64,000 nucleotides of DNA from Fibrobacter sp. (lineage in GTDB: Bacteria; Fibrobacterota; Fibrobacteria; Fibrobacterales; Fibrobacteraceae), in assembly GCA_024398875.1 (NCBI GenBank), contig JAKSIJ010000003.1:186001-250000 (forward strand), written 5' to 3'. The notes under the pieces are model-generated. The model searched no databases. It saw only the letters and a program-made list of their open reading frames with translations, and was not told the DNA's origin. Both the position numbers and the translations under genes were made by a program. Positions 1-49,368 of the stretch are shown here, piece by piece (position 1 is the first letter of the stretch; the number at the start of each line of letters is the position of its first letter).

Positions 1-193
1 CCAGGCCAACTACCAGGGTGCAAAAATCGTCGTCTATGTGGATGGCAACAAGGCTCAGGCAGGCGAATTCGAGTTCAAGGATCTCCGCGATGGCACCATG
101 CACGTGGGTAATGCAGACGCAATCATAAAGCAACTCATAATCAATTCACAATTCACAATTCAAAATTCAAAATTAATATCTCATACTTCATAA
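1..193 (+). CDS. hisS: Probable histidine--tRNA ligase, C-terminal end (partial)
   Basis: An open frame enters from the left edge (codons from base 2) and stops at TAA 191-193. The residues GAKIVVYVDGNKAQAGEF followed by KDLRDGTMHV fit the last strands and helix of the class II aminoacyl-tRNA synthetase anticodon-binding domain as it ends in HisRS (pattern G-A ... G ... A-x-G ... KDLR-x-G). The family usually ends near the residues read here as IIKQL. The frame instead continues about 19 codons into an AT-rich heptamer array that supplies the stop. Only about 63 codons are visible, so the identity is inferred from this tail alone; another class II synthetase is possible but fits less well. 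Confidence 0.5.
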   Translation, partial: QANYQGAKIVVYVDGNKAQAGEFEFKDLRDGTMHVGNADAIIKQLIINSQFTIQNSKLISHTS

Positions 194-7170: not shown

Positions 7171-8604
7171 GTGACTAGCGATACGAACCCTTTAGAAAAG
7201 CGCATCAAGCGACAAATTCACGGGAAAAGCCACCGTTTTGTGGCCATTGCTCCCCTGGGCTTCGAAGAAACTCTCGTCCAGGAATTGGAAAATTTCAAAA
7301 TTGAAGGGGCTGTATTCAAGGTCATCGCCGACGGAAAGGTTGAATTCAACACAAAACTCGCGGAAGCCTGGAAAGCAGTGGCCTATAGCCGCATCGCAAA
7401 CCGCGTACTCATGGAAATAGGCGCATTCAACGCCACCAATTTCGGACAACTGGAAAAGAAAATCGCAGAGATCCCCTGGGAACTGTACCTGTTCAATGCA
7501 GAATGCAGAATGCGGAATGCAGAATTGATTTCAGACACAAACAGCGTTGACAACGCATGTTCTTTCAACATCCATGTGAGTTGCAAGCATTCCAGGCTCT
7601 ACCACAGCGATGCCATTGCGGAACGTGTTCTGCTGTTAATTTGTTCAAGATTACAAGATTTTGGGATAGAGGATGGGTTAGATGATAACGGCACCGCGGA
7701 CCCACAGAACCTCTACATTGATTTCGTCGATGACCGCTGCACCCTCTGGCTGGACCTCGCCGGCGAAGAGCTCTACAAGCGGGGCCATGAACGTTTTGTG
7801 GCAGAAGCGCCACTCAAGGAAACCATCGCCGCCGCCATGATTTTCGAAGCAATCCAAATTGTAAAATCAGCCGCAAAGCCCTCTAATGAATCGCGCGGCA
7901 TCACAACCATTGTCGATCCTATGGCTGGCAGCGGCACCTTCAGCCTAGAAGCCGCCTATATGGCAAACGGTCTCATTCCCGGAATGAGCCGTGATTTTGC
8001 GCTGAAGCATCAGCCCGGCTTCAAAGAAGCAACGTGGAAGCATATTTGCTCACAATTCACAATTCAAGATTCAAAATGCAAAATGGAAAATGAGGGAAAT
8101 CATTTTCAAACAAAGTGCTGTAAATCAAGCAACGTCATTGCGAGCCCTTCAGGGCGCGGCAATCTTTTAAAAATTCTCACATCGGATATTTCTGAACGGG
8201 CGATAAACATCATCCGCCACAACGTGGAGCATTGTCCGCTGGCAGAAATTGCACCTGAAGCCATACAGCCGCAACTGAAGGATTTCTTCTGCTATAATTT
8301 TGAGGAAATTGCCTCAAGCAATTCTGGTCCCGTCCTCATTCTCCTGAATCCGCCTTACGGAAAACGATTGAATTTTGATGCACCGGCGCTGTACTCTAAA
8401 ATCGGGAAATTCCTGAATGATGCTCTGCGCAAGAATGGCTACAGTCAAGCCAAAGGCATTCATGTGGCTATACTTGCGCCTAAGGGCGAATGCCGCGAAA
8501 ATCTTCTCCAGGAATGTGCACTTTTAAATCCTGCGAAAAATGATGCCGCCAAAGAAATAAAAACCAGTCACGGCGGCATCAGCCTCTCCGCACTGTTCTG
8601 CTAA
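7171..8604 (+). CDS. THUMP-domain rRNA (guanine-N2)-methyltransferase, RlmL/YpsC type
   Basis: The N-terminal THUMP region is followed by a Rossmann methyltransferase with DPMAGSGTFSLEAA (SAM motif, from Asp249) and NPPYGKR (from Asn393), the catalytic NPPY of N2-guanine methylases. The family methylates 23S rRNA. It starts with GTG at 7171. Two segments look like acquired repeats translated in frame: residues about 109-120 (heptamer AATGCAG, read as NAECRMRNAEL) and residues about 294-332 (AATTCAC-type heptamers followed by a palindromic element). Both fall between conserved blocks, so the enzyme may still work. It is divergent from the bottom-strand phosphatase, with 47 bp between them. Confidence 0.85.
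   Translation: MTSDTNPLEKRIKRQIHGKSHRFVAIAPLGFEETLVQELENFKIEGAVFKVIADGKVEFNTKLAEAWKAVAYSRIANRVLMEIGAFNATNFGQLEKKIAEIPWELYLFNAECRMRNAELISDTNSVDNACSFNIHVSCKHSRLYHSDAIAERVLLLICSRLQDFGIEDGLDDNGTADPQNLYIDFVDDRCTLWLDLAGEELYKRGHERFVAEAPLKETIAAAMIFEAIQIVKSAAKPSNESRGITTIVDPMAGSGTFSLEAAYMANGLIPGMSRDFALKHQPGFKEATWKHICSQFTIQDSKCKMENEGNHFQTKCCKSSNVIASPSGRGNLLKILTSDISERAINIIRHNVEHCPLAEIAPEAIQPQLKDFFCYNFEEIASSNSGPVLILLNPPYGKRLNFDAPALYSKIGKFLNDALRKNGYSQAKGIHVAILAPKGECRENLLQECALLNPAKNDAAKEIKTSHGGISLSALFC
7494..7528. repeat. In-frame heptamer array B inside the THUMP methyltransferase
   Basis: Four consecutive 7-bp units of the AATGCAG type (one is AATGCGG) lie within the coding frame. Because 21 bp equals three heptamers and seven codons, the array encodes a 7-residue periodic peptide (NAECRMR, then NAEL). 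The same unit occurs on the opposite strand in the intergenic arrays at 35890-35915 and 44330-44352. Confidence 0.8.
8051..8164. repeat. In-frame heptamer array C plus palindromic element
   Basis: AATTCAC and AATTCAA-type units at 8051-8094 are followed by the palindrome-like element at 8134-8164, which begins GTCATTGCGAG and ends GCGCGGCAATC. The outer arms ATTGC and GCAAT are complementary, as are the inner CCCT and AGGG. Elements with these ends are familiar as dispersed intergenic palindromes in many bacteria; here one is translated as part of a methyltransferase. The whole 114 bp keeps the frame open. Confidence 0.7.
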
Positions 8605-17332: not shown

Positions 17333-17475
17333 TGTACGAAGTAAAGTTATAAATTATGAATTATGAAGTATGAGATAATTAGTAATTAGTGGTCGGGGAT
17401 TAATATAAAACAATTTAAAATTCAAAATTCAAAATTAATAATTGCAATTTCAAACAAAAACAATTCAAAATTATG
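17333..17475. repeat. AT-rich heptamer repeat array D
   Basis: Units such as AATTATG, AATTCAA and AATTAGT fill the divergent space between the M29 peptidase gene and the lipoprotein gene at 17578. It is part of the same family as array A. Confidence 0.7.
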
Positions 17476-18875: not shown

Positions 18876-19829
18876 ATGGTTTTATTCTGGATCCTATTTC
18901 TCGTTCTCGTAGGCATCATCCTTGCCTTGGATCTTGGCGTATTCAACAAAAAGGACCATGTCATCAGTGTAGGCGAAGCCCTCCGCTGGACAGGAGTCTG
19001 GATTCTCGTTTCCCTCGCCTTTGACGTGGCCATCTTTTTCCTGTATGGGAATGGAATCATTGAAGGACCGAAAGGCCCCATTGCTGGTTCCGAGGCCGCA
19101 CTGGAATACCTCACCGGCTATGTCATCGAAAAATCCCTTTCCCTCGACAACATCTTTGTGATGGCAGCCATTTTCGCCTACTTCAAGATTCCTCAAATCT
19201 ACCAGCATCGCGTGTTGTTCTGGGGTATTCTGGGCGCCATCATTCTCCGCGGCATTTTCATTTTTGGCGGTACCGCCCTCATCCTCCATTTCGGCTGGAT
19301 CATGTACATCTTTGGCGTCATTCTCATCTTCACCGCCCTCAAAATGTTGTTCGGGAAAGACGATGAGGAACAGGACTTGGAGAAGAACGCCGTAGTCCGA
19401 TTCTGCAGGGCGTTCCTCCCTGTCACAACAAAGATGGAAGGCCACGCCTTCATCATTAAGGAAAACGGAAAGCGGTTCATCACTCCGCTCCTCGTGACGC
19501 TATTCGTCATCGAGACTTCCGACGTACTCTTTGCCGTGGACTCCATTCCCGCAATCTTTGCAGTGACTTTGGACCCCTTCATCGTGTTCACGTCCAACAT
19601 CATGGCCATTCTCGGGCTACGCTCCCTCTATTTCGCCCTAGCCGCAATGCTCGCCAAGTTCGCCAAGCTGAAATACGCCATCGTCTTCATCCTGGCGTTT
19701 ATCGGCGTGAAAATGCTGATTGTGGAACTCTACGAGATTCCTACAGCCATTAGCCTTGCCTTGATTGTAGTGGCCCTCGTTGCAGGGACGCTGGCTAGTC
19801 TTGTAAAAAAAATTAGCACGATGCGCTAA
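18876..19829 (+). CDS. TerC family integral membrane protein
   Basis: The 317-residue protein has about nine hydrophobic segments and TerC signatures: an acidic first helix (LALDLGVFNKKDH), YVIEKSLSLDNIFVM in the conserved position, and FVIETSDVLFAVDSIPAIFAV with the paired acidic residues. Members are linked to tellurite resistance and, in better-studied cases, to Mn2+ export or insertion of exported proteins' metal cofactors. The partner ter genes are absent, so Mn2+ or general metal handling is the more likely role. Confidence 0.92.
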   Translation: MVLFWILFLVLVGIILALDLGVFNKKDHVISVGEALRWTGVWILVSLAFDVAIFFLYGNGIIEGPKGPIAGSEAALEYLTGYVIEKSLSLDNIFVMAAIFAYFKIPQIYQHRVLFWGILGAIILRGIFIFGGTALILHFGWIMYIFGVILIFTALKMLFGKDDEEQDLEKNAVVRFCRAFLPVTTKMEGHAFIIKENGKRFITPLLVTLFVIETSDVLFAVDSIPAIFAVTLDPFIVFTSNIMAILGLRSLYFALAAMLAKFAKLKYAIVFILAFIGVKMLIVELYEIPTAISLALIVVALVAGTLASLVKKISTMR

Positions 19830-19841
19830 TCATGAATTACG

Positions 19842-20190
19842 AGAAGCTTCTGACGATGAACTCGCCAGAAACAATTATGAATTATGAGTTATGAAGTATG
19901 AGAAGCATCTGATGGTGAATTCTCATAAGATAATTTTGAATTGTGAATTTTGAATTGTGAATTGATAACTAAGGCGAGTGAAACGACCGAGCTTGCTCGG
20001 GCACTTCCGAGCCGAAGTCAAAATGAGTGCGAAGCACTAATTATTAATTATGGATTATGAAGTACGAGAGGCATCTGACGATGAACTCGCCAGAAATAAT
20101 TATGAATTATGAAGTATGAGAGACTTCTGACGACGATTTCTCTCGAGATAATTATGAATTTTGAATTTTAAATTTTGAATTGTGAATTGC
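19842..20190. repeat. Long heptamer array E with embedded palindromes
   Basis: A 350-bp non-coding block between the convergent terC and receiver-like genes. A segment including TCTGACGATGAACTCGCC occurs near 19850 and again near 20077, each with the flanking GAATTATGA-type heptamers, and diverged copies lie near 19905 and 20125. Inside are small palindromes CCGAGC-TT-GCTCGG (about 19987) and AGTGC-GAA-GCACT (about 20026), like those at 10950-11056. No open frame is supported. Confidence 0.7.
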
Positions 20191-35801: not shown

Positions 35802-35917
35802 AAATTACAAGTTATAAGTTATGAATTATAAATTAGTCTCGAGATTGGTCTTCAATTCAAAATTAAGAATTATTTCTCGCAAATCTCAATTCATCATTCT
35901 GCATTCTGCATTCATAA
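35802..35917. repeat. AT-rich heptamer repeat array F
   Basis: AATTATG-, AATTCAA- and, on the opposite strand, AATGCAG-type units fill the space between the PadR stop codon and the start region of cellobiose phosphorylase. The array begins right after the PadR stop. It would sit in the 5' leader if the two genes are co-transcribed. Confidence 0.75.
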
Positions 35918-39902: not shown

Positions 39903-40820
39903 CTACAACGAGCCTTTGAACTCTTTTTCTGCTTGAGCGAGACCTTCCCCCCACTCTTTCTGGATTTTCTGCTTGAGTTTTTTGGCAAGCGCGGGAGTGC
40001 GGCCCTGGGTAGAAACAGTCACCGCGATATTTTCACCGAAATCCATGCGGGCAGGGACGATGAAATCGCCATCCAGATAATCGCAGGCGTTGTTCACCAG
40101 AATGCGGCGGGCCCGAGCGTCATTGCTGACCAGGGCATTCACAGCGGGCTTGTCCGTGCAGATAAAAGCGAGAAAAACGCCCATCAAATCCGCAGGCTCG
40201 TAGGGATGTTGAACCAGCGTACAATTTGGGGAAGCAATTTCAGCAAATTCTGGAGCAAACTGCGGGGACACCACCTTGATGCGGGCGCCTGTAGGGAGAA
40301 GGGTTTTCACCTTGCGGAGAGCGATGGAACCTCCACCCACCACAAGCACGTTGCGGCCCTCCAGATTCATCTCCATCGCAAAGAGGTTAGGTGCGGGCGG
40401 AACTGCACCCGAATTTTGCGCAGGAACTGCGCCCGAATTTTCAATTTCCAATTTTGAATTTTGAATTGTGAATTGTGCATTAACCACACTCTCCACCACC
40501 ATATCCGTGAAGTTGCTCCAGTCCCCGAGGCAAGGCAACAGCGTAATGGGAATGTTGGGGAATTCCGCCTGCAGCTTAGACATGACCATCGGCACATCAT
40601 TCCGAGCGTGCTGTCCATTCAAAAGCAGGTACGGGAAAAGCGCCACAGACTCCACATCTTCGCGCAGAAGCGTCCGCAAATCCTTCTCCAAATCCAGAAG
40701 ACTCGTGCTAGCCACACGCGTGCCAGGCAGTTCGTGATGCAAGCGGTCCATCACCTCTTCAAAGCCCTTGAAGGCTCCGGGGATGATGGAATGGTGTGCG
40801 ATGATGAGTAGTGCCTTCAT
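39903..40820 (-). CDS. Fusion of CbiX-type chelatase and precorrin-2 dehydrogenase (SirC/Met8 N-terminal)
   Basis: About 305 residues from ATG 40820. Residues 1-112 are a CbiX/SirB-like chelatase half (LLIIAHHSIIPGAFKGF, VALFPYLLLNGQHARNDVP). Residues about 150-305 are a Met8/CysG-N precorrin-2 dehydrogenase with the NAD loop VLVVGGGSIALRKVKTLL and DGDFIVPARMDFG ... AVTVSTQGRTPALAKKLK. It would convert precorrin-2 to sirohydrochlorin and insert iron or cobalt, that is, siroheme or heme by the siroheme route. The linker (about 114-143) is encoded by a heptamer array plus two 24-bp copies ending CCCGAATTTT. It is 18 bp after prfC and followed by hemB. Confidence 0.85.
   Translation of the reverse strand: MKALLIIAHHSIIPGAFKGFEEVMDRLHHELPGTRVASTSLLDLEKDLRTLLREDVESVALFPYLLLNGQHARNDVPMVMSKLQAEFPNIPITLLPCLGDWSNFTDMVVESVVNAQFTIQNSKLEIENSGAVPAQNSGAVPPAPNLFAMEMNLEGRNVLVVGGGSIALRKVKTLLPTGARIKVVSPQFAPEFAEIASPNCTLVQHPYEPADLMGVFLAFICTDKPAVNALVSNDARARRILVNNACDYLDGDFIVPARMDFGENIAVTVSTQGRTPALAKKLKQKIQKEWGEGLAQAEKEFKGSL
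40391..40480. repeat. In-frame heptamer array G forming a domain linker
   Basis: On the coding strand AATTCAC and AATTCAA-type units, then two tandem copies of a 24-bp unit around GCAGTTCC (encoding NSGAVPA/NSGAVPP), join the chelatase and dehydrogenase domains. The same AATTCAA units form the intergenic arrays. Confidence 0.8.
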
Positions 40821-40838
40821 GGCAATAACTTCCAAGGA

Positions 40839-42404
40839 TTAACCCTGAGAAGTCTCCGCGAAGGTGAGGTTTTCATAATTCTTCATAGCCAGATTCAAGC
40901 GGTACTCGTTGGGGAACAGGCAAACCAGATTCCGCTCCTTGTCCATCATGCAATCCATGGCGTATTCGTCTGCAAACTTTCCGACGTCCGCTTCTGGCCC
41001 CTTAACCCAGCGGATTCCATGAGCAGGGACGCGGTCCAACTGCACATCGGCGCCATATTCACTCTGCAGGCGGAACTTGAGCACGTCAAACTGCAATTCG
41101 CCAACCACGCCAACCACAGGAATGGCAGACTTCAAGGGTTCGTAAAGCTGAGTGGCACCTTCTTCCGAAAGTTCCGCCAAGCCCTTGGTCAACTGCTTGG
41201 ACTTGAGAGGATTCAAAAGGGTCACGCGGGCAAAGTGTTCCGGAGCAAAATCCGGAATTCCCGTAAAGCTCATCTTCTCCCCATCCGTCAAGGTATCTCC
41301 AATGCGGAAGAGACCGGGGTCGTTGATACCCACAATATCTCCAGCCCAGGCGTGGTCAATGACTTCCTTATCTTTAGCGAGGAATGCCGTAGGAGCCGCC
41401 AAGCGGATTTCACGGCCTGTGCGCACGTGGAAAACTTTTTCGCCACGAGTAAAGCTGCCGGAGCAAATGCGGAGGAAGGCCGTACGGTCGCGATGCTTCG
41501 GGTCCATGTTCGCCTGAATCTTAAACACAAACGCGCTAAAGGCGTCTTCATCGGGCTTCACATCGCGCTTGTCCGTGTTGCGGACCATGGGCGGCGGGGC
41601 CAGTTTTGCAAAAGCGTTCAACAGTTGGCGCACACCAAAGTTGTTCACCGCACTGCCAAAGAACACCGGGCACATCTCCCCCTTCAGGAACCGTTCATGG
41701 TCAAAGGGGTCCATACCGCCCGTCACCATCTCATATTCTTCCTTGAACTGGTTCACCCAATTCTCGCCGCACATCTCCACCAGCCGCGGGTCATCGGGGC
41801 CCGTCATCTGGATAATTTCCTGCTTACCATCATCCGGGTTAAAAGTATGGAAGGTATTCTCCGCAATAGAATAGACACCCTTGAAAAGTTTTCCAACGCC
41901 AATGGGTAGCGTAAAAGGAGCCGTCTTGATGTGGAGCACATTTTCAATCTGGTCCAGAAGATCCAGCACATGGCGGCCATCCAAGTCCATCTTGTTTATG
42001 AAGGTGATGATTGGTGTATGACGCATGCGGCAAACGTTCATCAAACGAATGGTCTGCTTTTCCACGCCGTTCACGCTATCAATAAGCACCAGAGCAGCAT
42101 CCACAGCAGTAAGCGCACGGTAAGTGTCTTCGCAGAAGTCCTGATGCCCCGGCGTATCCACCAGGTTGAACATGCAACCTTCAAAGGGGAAGTTCAACAC
42201 GGAACTGGAAACGGAAATTCCACGCTGTTGCTCGATTTTCATCCAGTCACTAACCGTGTAGCTCTTGTTGGCCTTGGCACGAACATGGCCCGCCTCACGA
42301 ATCACATTTCCATACCACAAGAATTTTTCCGTAATGGTTGTCTTACCAGCATCAGGGTGGCTTACAATAGCAAAAGTACGGCGTTTTTCAATTTCTGGAT
42401 TCAT
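40839..42404 (-). CDS. prfC: Peptide chain release factor 3
   Basis: About 521 residues from ATG 42404 (MNPEIEKRRTFAIVSHPDAG). GTPase motifs are SHPDAGKTTITEKFL (G1), RGISVSSSVLNF (G2), DTPGHQDFCEDTYR (G3) and FINKMD (G4), and the C-terminal domain has VVGVVGELQFDVLKFRL, an RF3 hallmark. RF3 removes RF1 and RF2 from the ribosome after release. It leads a run with the tetrapyrrole genes. A TTG two codons upstream is a less likely start. Confidence 0.96.
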   Translation of the reverse strand: MNPEIEKRRTFAIVSHPDAGKTTITEKFLWYGNVIREAGHVRAKANKSYTVSDWMKIEQQRGISVSSSVLNFPFEGCMFNLVDTPGHQDFCEDTYRALTAVDAALVLIDSVNGVEKQTIRLMNVCRMRHTPIITFINKMDLDGRHVLDLLDQIENVLHIKTAPFTLPIGVGKLFKGVYSIAENTFHTFNPDDGKQEIIQMTGPDDPRLVEMCGENWVNQFKEEYEMVTGGMDPFDHERFLKGEMCPVFFGSAVNNFGVRQLLNAFAKLAPPPMVRNTDKRDVKPDEDAFSAFVFKIQANMDPKHRDRTAFLRICSGSFTRGEKVFHVRTGREIRLAAPTAFLAKDKEVIDHAWAGDIVGINDPGLFRIGDTLTDGEKMSFTGIPDFAPEHFARVTLLNPLKSKQLTKGLAELSEEGATQLYEPLKSAIPVVGVVGELQFDVLKFRLQSEYGADVQLDRVPAHGIRWVKGPEADVGKFADEYAMDCMMDKERNLVCLFPNEYRLNLAMKNYENLTFAETSQG

Positions 42405-47670: not shown

Positions 47671-47787
47671 AATAAACCTCTTTCACCAATAACATAGGTT
47701 TTTACGCCGAAAAAAGGGAAAATCACCCCCAATAAATGTTTTTTTTTCTACAATTCTTCCAAATAAGTTACGAAAGGAGTCCAAAAT

Positions 47788-49347
47788 ATGAAGAAGATGT
47801 TCCTTGCAACGTGCCTTTTGGCTGCAGCCGTGTTCGCTGCTCCTGAGGCCACTGCACCGGCAGCACCCGCTGCTGAACCAGCACAACCAGCAGCTGCACC
47901 CGCTGAACAAGCCGCTGCTCCTGCCGCTCCTGCTGCCGAAGCCACTCCTGCGGAACAGGCTGCCGCCCCTGCTGCTCCTGCTGCCGAAGCCGCCCCCGCT
48001 GAACAGGCCGCTGCTCCTGCCGCCCCTGCCGCCGAAGCCGCTCCCGCTGAACAGACCGCAGCTCCTGCTGCCCCTGCCGCCGAAGCCGCTCCCGCCGAAC
48101 AGGCTGCCGCTGCTGAGGCTCCTGCCGCCGAGGCCGCACCCGCTGAACAGGCTGCCGCTGAGGCTCCTGCCGCTGAAGCCGCTCCCGCTGAACAGACCGC
48201 AGCTCCTGCTGCCCCTGCCGCTGAAGCCGCTCCCGCTGAAGAAGTTGCTGCTGCAGAACCTGCAAAGGAAGAAGTAGTCGCAAAGAAGGCTCCTGAAAAG
48301 AAACCCGCTAAGAAGAAGCGCAAAAAGAAAAAATTGGTTAATGAAGAAGACGCCGTCATCAAGACCCAGAAGCTCGCTTTTGATATCAACGCAGACTTCG
48401 AATTGGAAGCTGGCAAGGTGTTCTGGACTAGCGAAGATGACGAAAATGGCGACAACCTGGAAACCTGGAATGGCGAAGCAAACTTTGCCATCCTCGCTGA
48501 AGGCGATGATTTCAAGGGTAAGATTGGCGTAGCCTTCTATCCTGGCGATTTGGCAAGCGAACCTGCCGGCTACAACACCAAGCGCGAAAAGCGTAAAATG
48601 ATTCGCGAAGACAAGGTGGAATCCGTAGACGACTACTTCTCTCTCGACGAAGCATGGGCTATGCAGGAAACGGATCTCTTCAGCTTCAAGGTCGGTCGTT
48701 GGGACAATACCGACAAGAACGGCGACTACTTCGGTGGTTACATCGATGGTTATTTGGCCGGATTCATGTCCACCCAGAATTCCGAAAACCAGTTGCAATT
48801 TGGTTTCACACCTTCTGACAATGTGGATTTCTTCGTGTCCTTCATCAGCGGATCTTCTCACCTGAACAAGGGTGACCTCCGTGCCGCTTTCAACTTCCAT
48901 GGTCTTCAGGGAATTAGCGATTTGAACATCCAGCTCGCCTACCGCAGCAACCTCTTTGACGTGGTTTACGATAGCGATGCCGAAGTGAAGCACAACGCAT
49001 CCCTTAAGGCTAACCTCCCTGTAGTGCAGAACTACTTCAACATCTTTGCTGAAGCAGCTCTTATGAACATCGACCCCGATGAAGACATGATTATCCCCGT
49101 TACCGGAGGTGTCGCCGTATTCACTCCCGTTGTGGACCGCATCATTCTTGAAGCTGAATACATTGCAAGCCGCGATGAACATCCGGAATACCAGGGTTTC
49201 AAGGCCAAGCACGTGAAAGATGTTCTCGGTGCCATCTACCTGGAAAAGTCCTTCACCGATCGCTTCAGCCTGTCTGCTGGTTTCCACAGCTACGGCAGCA
49301 CCAAGGACTACATGCTCTCTGGCAACCTGATTGGTCGCATCAACTAA
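47788..49347 (+). CDS. Outer-membrane porin-like protein with a Pro-Ala-Glu repeat
   Basis: The 519-residue protein has a signal peptide (MKKMFLATCLLAAAVFA), then about 140 residues of repeating PAEAAPAEQAAAPAA-type units, a basic patch (KKPAKKKRKKKK, about 171-182), and a beta-barrel-like region with alternating polar/aromatic strands (GYIDGYLAGFMST, QLQFGFTPSDNVDFFVSF) to the end. It resembles other porin-like proteins of fibre degraders. The repeat may be a periplasmic spacer spanning to the peptidoglycan, with the basic patch binding it; that is inference. A strong ribosome binding site (AAAGGAG) and a terminator frame it. Confidence 0.8.
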   Translation: MKKMFLATCLLAAAVFAAPEATAPAAPAAEPAQPAAAPAEQAAAPAAPAAEATPAEQAAAPAAPAAEAAPAEQAAAPAAPAAEAAPAEQTAAPAAPAAEAAPAEQAAAAEAPAAEAAPAEQAAAEAPAAEAAPAEQTAAPAAPAAEAAPAEEVAAAEPAKEEVVAKKAPEKKPAKKKRKKKKLVNEEDAVIKTQKLAFDINADFELEAGKVFWTSEDDENGDNLETWNGEANFAILAEGDDFKGKIGVAFYPGDLASEPAGYNTKREKRKMIREDKVESVDDYFSLDEAWAMQETDLFSFKVGRWDNTDKNGDYFGGYIDGYLAGFMSTQNSENQLQFGFTPSDNVDFFVSFISGSSHLNKGDLRAAFNFHGLQGISDLNIQLAYRSNLFDVVYDSDAEVKHNASLKANLPVVQNYFNIFAEAALMNIDPDEDMIIPVTGGVAVFTPVVDRIILEAEYIASRDEHPEYQGFKAKHVKDVLGAIYLEKSFTDRFSLSAGFHSYGSTKDYMLSGNLIGRIN

Positions 49348-49368
49348 GAAAAATTGCATTCCAGCAAG

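Follow-up and report, generated by a model that had tools for sequence, protein, structure and literature searches.

The gene for a fused siroheme-synthesis enzyme of Fibrobacter, a rumen bacterium, carries short in-frame inserts at two fixed sites, and in many species these inserts match repeats dispersed through Fibrobacter genomes. They are concentrated at the two sites, turn over among species and are linked to the repeat content of the genome in which they reside. We consider it likely that the two sites are tolerant ones, recurrently refilled by the genome's own repeats and filtered for an open frame. The gene was studied in a window, a 64,000-nucleotide stretch (contig C23:186001-250000) of a 2.78-Mb genome (G000), and in 80 genomes of the genus.

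The fused gene, its relatives and its linker

We found an intact open reading frame of 305 codons (Table 1) that matches Pfam CbiX and NAD_binding_7. As a sequence-only reading of the window had proposed, chelatase and precorrin-2 dehydrogenase domains are joined in one polypeptide, with both activities assigned from family membership. The first domain scores 41.4 bits against PF01903 (curated cut-off, 22) and is thus a CbiX domain; H9 and H71, which lie in and near it, are invariant across 24 aligned sequences and may, going by sequence position, correspond to the catalytic histidine pair of other CbiX proteins. The second domain matches PF13241 at residues 151-257 (E 3.7e-27, 95.4 bits) and TIGR01470 (CysG_Nterm) with 89.9 bits against a cut-off of 62.3, which places it in the CysG-N/Met8/SirC family, and its closest solved chain is the precorrin-2 dehydrogenase 3dfz (E 1.3e-26). 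At the position of CysG D104 (the DAPK loop) the window protein has C246, and an aspartate comes one residue later. D104 is kept in bifunctional enzymes and is not conserved in SirC (PMC7018833). The SirC domain of the window thus has no Asp at CysG position 104, the mark of bifunctional CysG-B and Met8p, and a Met8p-like bifunctional domain is disfavoured by this alignment (PMC7018833). Since the aspartate required for chelation in CysG and Met8p is missing, metal insertion probably falls to the CbiX domain. By homology, the fused enzyme would combine a CbiX-type sirohydrochlorin chelatase (class II; Fe/Co insertion) with a SirC-type precorrin-2 dehydrogenase, and its predicted role is to make siroheme from precorrin-2, the final two steps of the synthesis. 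The same two reactions are, by homology, those of SirB and SirC of Bacillus, of Met8p and of CysG (PMC7018833, PMC4063343), and the absence of CysG D104 is shared with monofunctional SirC. In Bacillus (PMC7018833) and Vagococcus, however, chelatase and dehydrogenase are separate proteins, whereas Fibrobacter has them in one polypeptide. Our structure model of the enzyme is poor (mean pLDDT 58.5), with its lowest confidence in the linker region, residues 123-152. The neighbour on one side (40839-42404) is presumably translation-factor-like, resembling prfC by sequence, and the genes on the other side, which we take to be hemB-hemL-like, owe their names to sequence resemblance as well; this hemB-hemL neighbourhood is also present in an order-level relative, G151.

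Table 1. Coordinates of the fusion gene, its parts and the repeats discussed (window positions unless a locus handle is given)
Feature	Position	Strand	Remarks
cbiX-sirC fusion gene, 305 aa	39903..40820	-	ATG at 40820; TTG in frame at 40835
CbiX domain, residues 18-109	40494..40769	-	Pfam PF01903, E 1.9e-10
SirC/CysG-N type NAD-binding precorrin-2 dehydrogenase domain (by homology), residues 151-257	40050..40370	-	PF13241, TIGR01470, 3dfz
Site A, hypervariable inter-domain linker, residues 114-144, NAQFTIQNSKLEIENSGAVPAQNSGAVPPAP	40389..40481	-	genus length range 17-52 aa
AATTNNN heptamer array encoding NAQFTIQNSKLEIENS	40435..40481	-	TRF; similar genomic places ~58
19-bp direct repeat, copy 1, encodes part of QNSGAVP	40399..40417	-	24-bp spacing
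19-bp direct repeat, copy 2, encodes part of ENSGAVP	40423..40441	-	24-bp spacing
Site B, second hypervariable site, residues 187-205	40206..40262	-	canonical short length, no recognised repeat in window species
AATTNNN array, intergenic	143..174	.	TRF extends to 236
AATTNNN array, intergenic	17412..17443	.	TRF
AATTNNN array, intergenic, inside longer 59-bp repeat region 19828-19964	19932..19963	.	
AATTNNN array, intergenic, adjoins 52-bp repeat region 20045-20165	20150..20188	.	
AATTNNN array, intergenic, 3 units	35854..35871	.	pattern search
DegT/DnrJ aminotransferase with in-frame repeat	L123 13045-14209		
Pseudouridine synthase with in-frame repeat	L149 2290-3259		
GH43 enzyme with in-frame repeat	L142 13050-14754		
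Class I/II aminotransferase with in-frame repeat	L143 9801-11211		

The gene was matched in 73 of the 80 genus genomes, full-length and fused in 72 and truncated by a contig end in one; no match was obtained in the other seven (G040, G042, G047, G050, G051, G052 and G078). Two of these, G050 and G052, have a completeness rating of 99%, so siroheme synthesis may have been lost or replaced there. A second, broken partial copy with one internal TGA lies about 5 kb from the intact gene (G035:C43:4334-4758) in a genome rated 8% contaminated. Outside the genus, G151, of another family in the same order, has a fused gene (E 1e-135) with a charged 23-aa linker, AFRREKRALREEKNASSSSARGR; both of its sites are short and carry no recognised repeat. 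Elsewhere in the phylum, in its other families and classes, each match spans a single domain. More distant relatives, G002 among them, thus have the two domains as separate proteins, a possibility the sequence-only reading had wished to see checked, and in Vagococcus they are encoded by adjacent separate genes. Genus g4, of the same family as Fibrobacter, has SirC alone or fused to HemA; in locus L075 of this sister genus (G014, 971-2411) HemA and SirC occupy one reading frame, a different fusion partner. The repeat as the origin of the fusion was rejected, the fused gene outside the genus having a linker with no recognised repeat; the fusion thus predates both the genus and the repeat in the window linker.

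The first half of the window linker is an AATTNNN period-7 array (TRF: 40435-40474, 5.7 copies, 84%), and the second half contains two 19-bp copies at 24-bp spacing. The earlier claim that a linker of about 30 residues is read from heptamer units holds, while its two 24-bp direct copies were slightly overstated: the match is 95% over 19 bp, and the final 5 of the 24 bases mismatch in register. The AATT heptamer is dispersed through this genome. AATTNNNAATTNNNAATT occurs 18 times in the window as against 0-1 times per first-order Markov simulation (ten simulations), and a 4-unit AATT pattern gives 146 matches per strand genome-wide as against 0 for a reversed control pattern, although adjacent units yield overlapping matches, so that 146 is not the number of arrays. 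With the linker DNA as query, 58 further genomic places were matched at E <= 1, all within the heptamer half; none of them covers the second half. The window holds six AATTNNN arrays of at least 3 units, five of which are intergenic; the fusion gene is the only conserved-gene location. The intergenic stretch 19828-20188 also holds compound repeats, whose units measure 59 and 52 bp and which contain AATTATGAATTATGAAGTACGAG together with heptamer arrays.

Two hypervariable sites across the genus

When the two sites are removed, 71 sequences have a remaining segment of 241 aa and two have one of 242 aa; within the genus the core is virtually free of indels. The linker (site A) ranges from 17 to 52 aa across the genus and the second site (site B) from 17 to 45 aa. 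The sequence-only reading had called for this comparison of linker length and had taken conservation of the linker beyond the genus as evidence against itself; we found the linker sequence unconserved beyond, or even within, the genus. It had also envisaged one repeat acting in linkers. This did not survive: there are about ten repeat types at the linker, and the second site, within the SirC domain, behaves alike. That a repeat served as a source of linker holds for the window species and does not extend to the origin of the fusion. Within the SirC domain, site B is flanked by the VVAP and YEPLDL motifs. In an alignment with solved CysG and SirC it directly follows the Rossmann domain's ...F.P.F segment, and it is probably a surface loop of that domain.

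The repeat types, about ten at site A and seven at site B, were assigned with a hand-written motif list. Heptamer types at the sites are AATT, TCTCGTC/GACGAAA, ACATTCC and CCTCGAA; site A of L034 is of the NSEIRTPN heptamer type. Both arms of two palindromic repeats are found as well, VIASEAKQS/RDCFVE..PRND and HSERSEES/LDSSTTP. At the peptide level, SSLVSRLSS corresponds to translated TCTCGTC arrays and STLHTTHSTSHTS to translated ACATTCC-type arrays, RDCFVEQSSPRNDK and VIASEAKQS are the two strands of one palindrome, and CRHSERSEESS and LDSSTTPNGSAQND derive from a further one. With their inserts, the sites all measure less than 160 nt in total. Neither site has a detectable repeat in 20 of 68 species (about 30%); some of the variation may therefore reflect ordinary drift, or repeats decayed beyond detection. 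Two species have, relative to close relatives, a hairpin-bearing insert nested in frame within a resident repeat: a 51-nt insert in the site-A palindrome of L024 (G021), and an insert in the site-B heptamer array of L045 (G038).

Using BLAST, we compared the sites of 68 species, together with five control segments of the fusion gene, with an 800-kb sample of unrelated DNA taken from 20 genomes of the genus. At E <= 0.01, dispersed DNA was matched by site A in 39 of the 68 and by site B in 35, and by the control segments in 2, 4, 4, 0 and 0; at E 1e-5 the counts were 20, 20 and 0 for the controls. When whole genes were scanned against intergenic DNA (E <= 1e-3), 39 of 72 fusion genes matched as against 21 of 400 random ORFs, 200-500 aa in length, which gives an odds ratio of 21, and two or more matching places were present in 32 of the 72 as against 6 of the 400. 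The 72 genes are orthologues and thus non-independent, so that p-values overstate the difference and are indicative only. In the same 800-kb sample, period-7 arrays are intergenic in 31 cases, at ORF edges in 17 and inside ORFs in 4, with 1 in simulated DNA; palindromic repeats are intergenic in 14 cases and inside in 6, with 0 in simulated DNA. Genus-wide searches with one site-A and one site-B query matched 29 and 43 of the 80 genomes, the gene itself being counted in carriers.

What resides at a site is related to what abounds in the genome. Whereas the AATT pattern has the 146 matches given above in G000 and 102 matches in G044, none of the remaining 78 genomes exceeds 26; AATT linkers are found only in these two AATT-swamped genomes. 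TCTCGTC arrays number 0 in both and are commoner in species with the TCTCGTC type at a site (Mann-Whitney p 6e-6, kinship ignored), and carriers of the HSERSEES type hold more further copies than others (p 0.01, kinship likewise ignored). For these comparisons within a species' own genome we relied on pattern matching, DNA searches and samples of 40 kb; own-genome match counts from the samples are too sparse to be informative by themselves.

Turnover of the inserts and its possible causes

Mapped on a core-DNA tree, the repeat type changed at least 35 times at site A and at least 28 times at site B; numerous inner branches are weakly supported, so these counts are approximate. L029 and L038 have cores 97.0% identical, yet differ at both sites. 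Another difference is seen in the sister species G000 and G044, whose cores are 95.3% identical and which have the AATT half of the linker in common. The G044 linker has 21 nt extra relative to G000 and, beyond these, a second insert about 42 nt long, which is a palindrome of the GTCATTGCGAGC..GCGAAGCAATC type and ends in CATCATTGCGAGCCGCGGATGCGGCGAAGCAATCT. This palindrome is translated in G044 as TSLRAADAAKQS and not as VIASEAKQS; since a VIASEAKQS-type palindrome is here read in another frame, it is DNA that was copied and not a peptide motif. Related copies elsewhere in G000 and G044 are weak matches (E 0.002 to 1) to a 61-nt query with an imprecise tail, which matched G044 itself at 93%.

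The explanation that we favour is as follows. The linker and the Rossmann loop would tolerate nearly any short peptide, and short repeats, dispersed mainly between Fibrobacter genes, would be recurrently copied at the DNA level into both sites, with template switching, slippage and gene conversion as candidate processes. Copies that leave the frame open and the domains working would be retained, amounting to selection for an open frame, later copies would overwrite or extend earlier ones, and the resident type would depend largely on the repeats abundant in that genome. Because 7 mod 3 is 1, a heptamer array encodes an identical seven-residue cycle in all three frames; a strand free of stops is hence open in every frame, which makes heptamer arrays suitable. 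The AATTCAA coding orientation has no stop, the reverse TTGAATT cycle contains TGA, and the linker has the open orientation. Copying into the sites is presumably the same process as the intergenic spread of the repeats, and the inserts are presumably neutral. A stronger form, in which the sites are standing docks whose content the copying process keeps replacing with the currently abundant repeat, and in which heptamers are favoured partly as frame-indifferent, is one that we put forward only tentatively.

Another possibility, on which we would not rely as the main cause, is that the sites were filled few times and that variants already present are reshuffled among species by homologous recombination, with the conserved flanks as its substrate. 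Mosaic combinations fit it too: L020, L037 and L064 have site A in common and three different B types, and L063 and L064 share the B type and differ at A, although in these cases the core is 91-94% identical; in L046, L049 and L066 A and B types common to separate species appear in different combinations. Such shuffling would still require about ten founding insertions at site A and seven at site B, the linker type tracks the genome's own repeat load, and the difference between G000 and G044 is an addition inside an otherwise nearly identical linker. Exchange between species through conserved flanks probably adds to the turnover all the same.

It is unlikely that the machinery of a mobile element (MITE or REP-type) favours the two DNA sites. 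Several inserts are indeed palindromic (GTCATTGCGAG..GCAATC, GTCATTCTGAACG..GAATC), and Rickettsia palindromic elements enter genes in frame (PMC10969869, PMC2229807), but unrelated repeat types reside at common sites, and tandem heptamer arrays, which are not transposon-like, occupy the identical positions. More improbable still is drift, in which disordered linkers and loops vary fast and resemble repeats by low-complexity convergence. The structure model has its lowest confidence at site A, as such drift would have it, and the species with no recognisable repeat at either site fit it too. Against this, the matches are to specific dispersed elements at the DNA level, up to 97-100% over about 28-42 nt, with the elements present in both orientations and translated in more than one frame, and control segments and random ORFs seldom match, so that drift without repeats is largely rejected. 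We think it similarly improbable, and slightly more so, that the repeat-derived segments are useful to the enzyme, for example through regulated domain spacing: every one of the 72 full-length genes keeps the sites and has an open frame, but neither sequence nor length is conserved, and one element is read in different frames. An artefact of metagenome bins hardly merits belief, although many of the genomes are metagenome-assembled, for the variants lie on long contigs (G062, 2.34 Mb; G059, 2.09 Mb; G022, 1.20 Mb; G063, 1.10 Mb), independent projects agree and the frame is always open.

In-frame repeats in other genes and in other bacteria

Events of this kind are general in the genus and uncommon per gene, and the fusion gene is a hotspot. 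In a DegT/DnrJ aminotransferase the insert occupies residues 175-191 within a domain that extends from residue 21 to 383. In-frame dispersed repeats are also carried by a class I/II aminotransferase and by a pseudouridine synthase whose domain match falls into two stretches, and in a GH43 enzyme the insert lies outside the GH43 domain. In the window, the N-terminal part of an RlmKL-like methyltransferase (UPF0020; 7411-8604, + strand) reads through an AATGCAG array at 7495-7525 (..FNAECRMRNAELISDT..). A 48-bp tandem repeat (AGCCGCTCCCGCTGAACAG..., 7.3 copies) is also present at 47892-48254, in the region of an ORF at 47683-49359.

The closest precedent is the Rickettsia palindromic elements (RPE), which are about 100-150 bp long and scattered over unrelated protein-coding genes (Ogata et al. 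2000, 2002; reviewed in PMC10969869 and PMC2229807). In both cases short, dispersed and largely palindromic repeats are tolerated in frame in conserved housekeeping enzymes, and the Fibrobacter inserts are, like RPE, dispersed and mainly intergenic repeats found in frame in a conserved protein. They differ in residing at two fixed sites of one enzyme, with about ten repeat types genus-wide and many tandem heptamers, and a 100-150-bp palindromic element with terminal inverted repeats was not found at sites A and B. Bacterial intragenic MITEs (ERIC/RU-1, Correia, QMITE1; PMC2229807, PMC10969869) are likewise mainly intergenic, have open frames and are sometimes fused to genes; the Fibrobacter heptamer arrays are not MITEs, whose marks are terminal inverted repeats with target-site duplication. 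Heptameric repeats enriched in the genome as seven-base tandems are described for Nostoc and Xanthomonas (PMC4692102). The Fibrobacter arrays resemble these in being genome-enriched seven-base tandems; their sequence differs and they serve additionally as a coding linker and loop. We found no literature on comparable Fibrobacter repeats or on Fibrobacter siroheme enzymes in a search confined mostly to sources outside subscription journals.

In-frame repeats in bacterial proteins have so far been scattered cases, with Rickettsia the best studied. Here, one small housekeeping enzyme provides dozens of natural replicates, with two sites in a core of constant length, a setting in which to ask by what route and how frequently short repeats move and what makes a protein accept one. 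The enzyme is also a clear case of repeat DNA turned into the physical link between two enzyme domains. If the sites do act as standing docks, repeat DNA would supply the whole genus with general-purpose material for linkers and loops.
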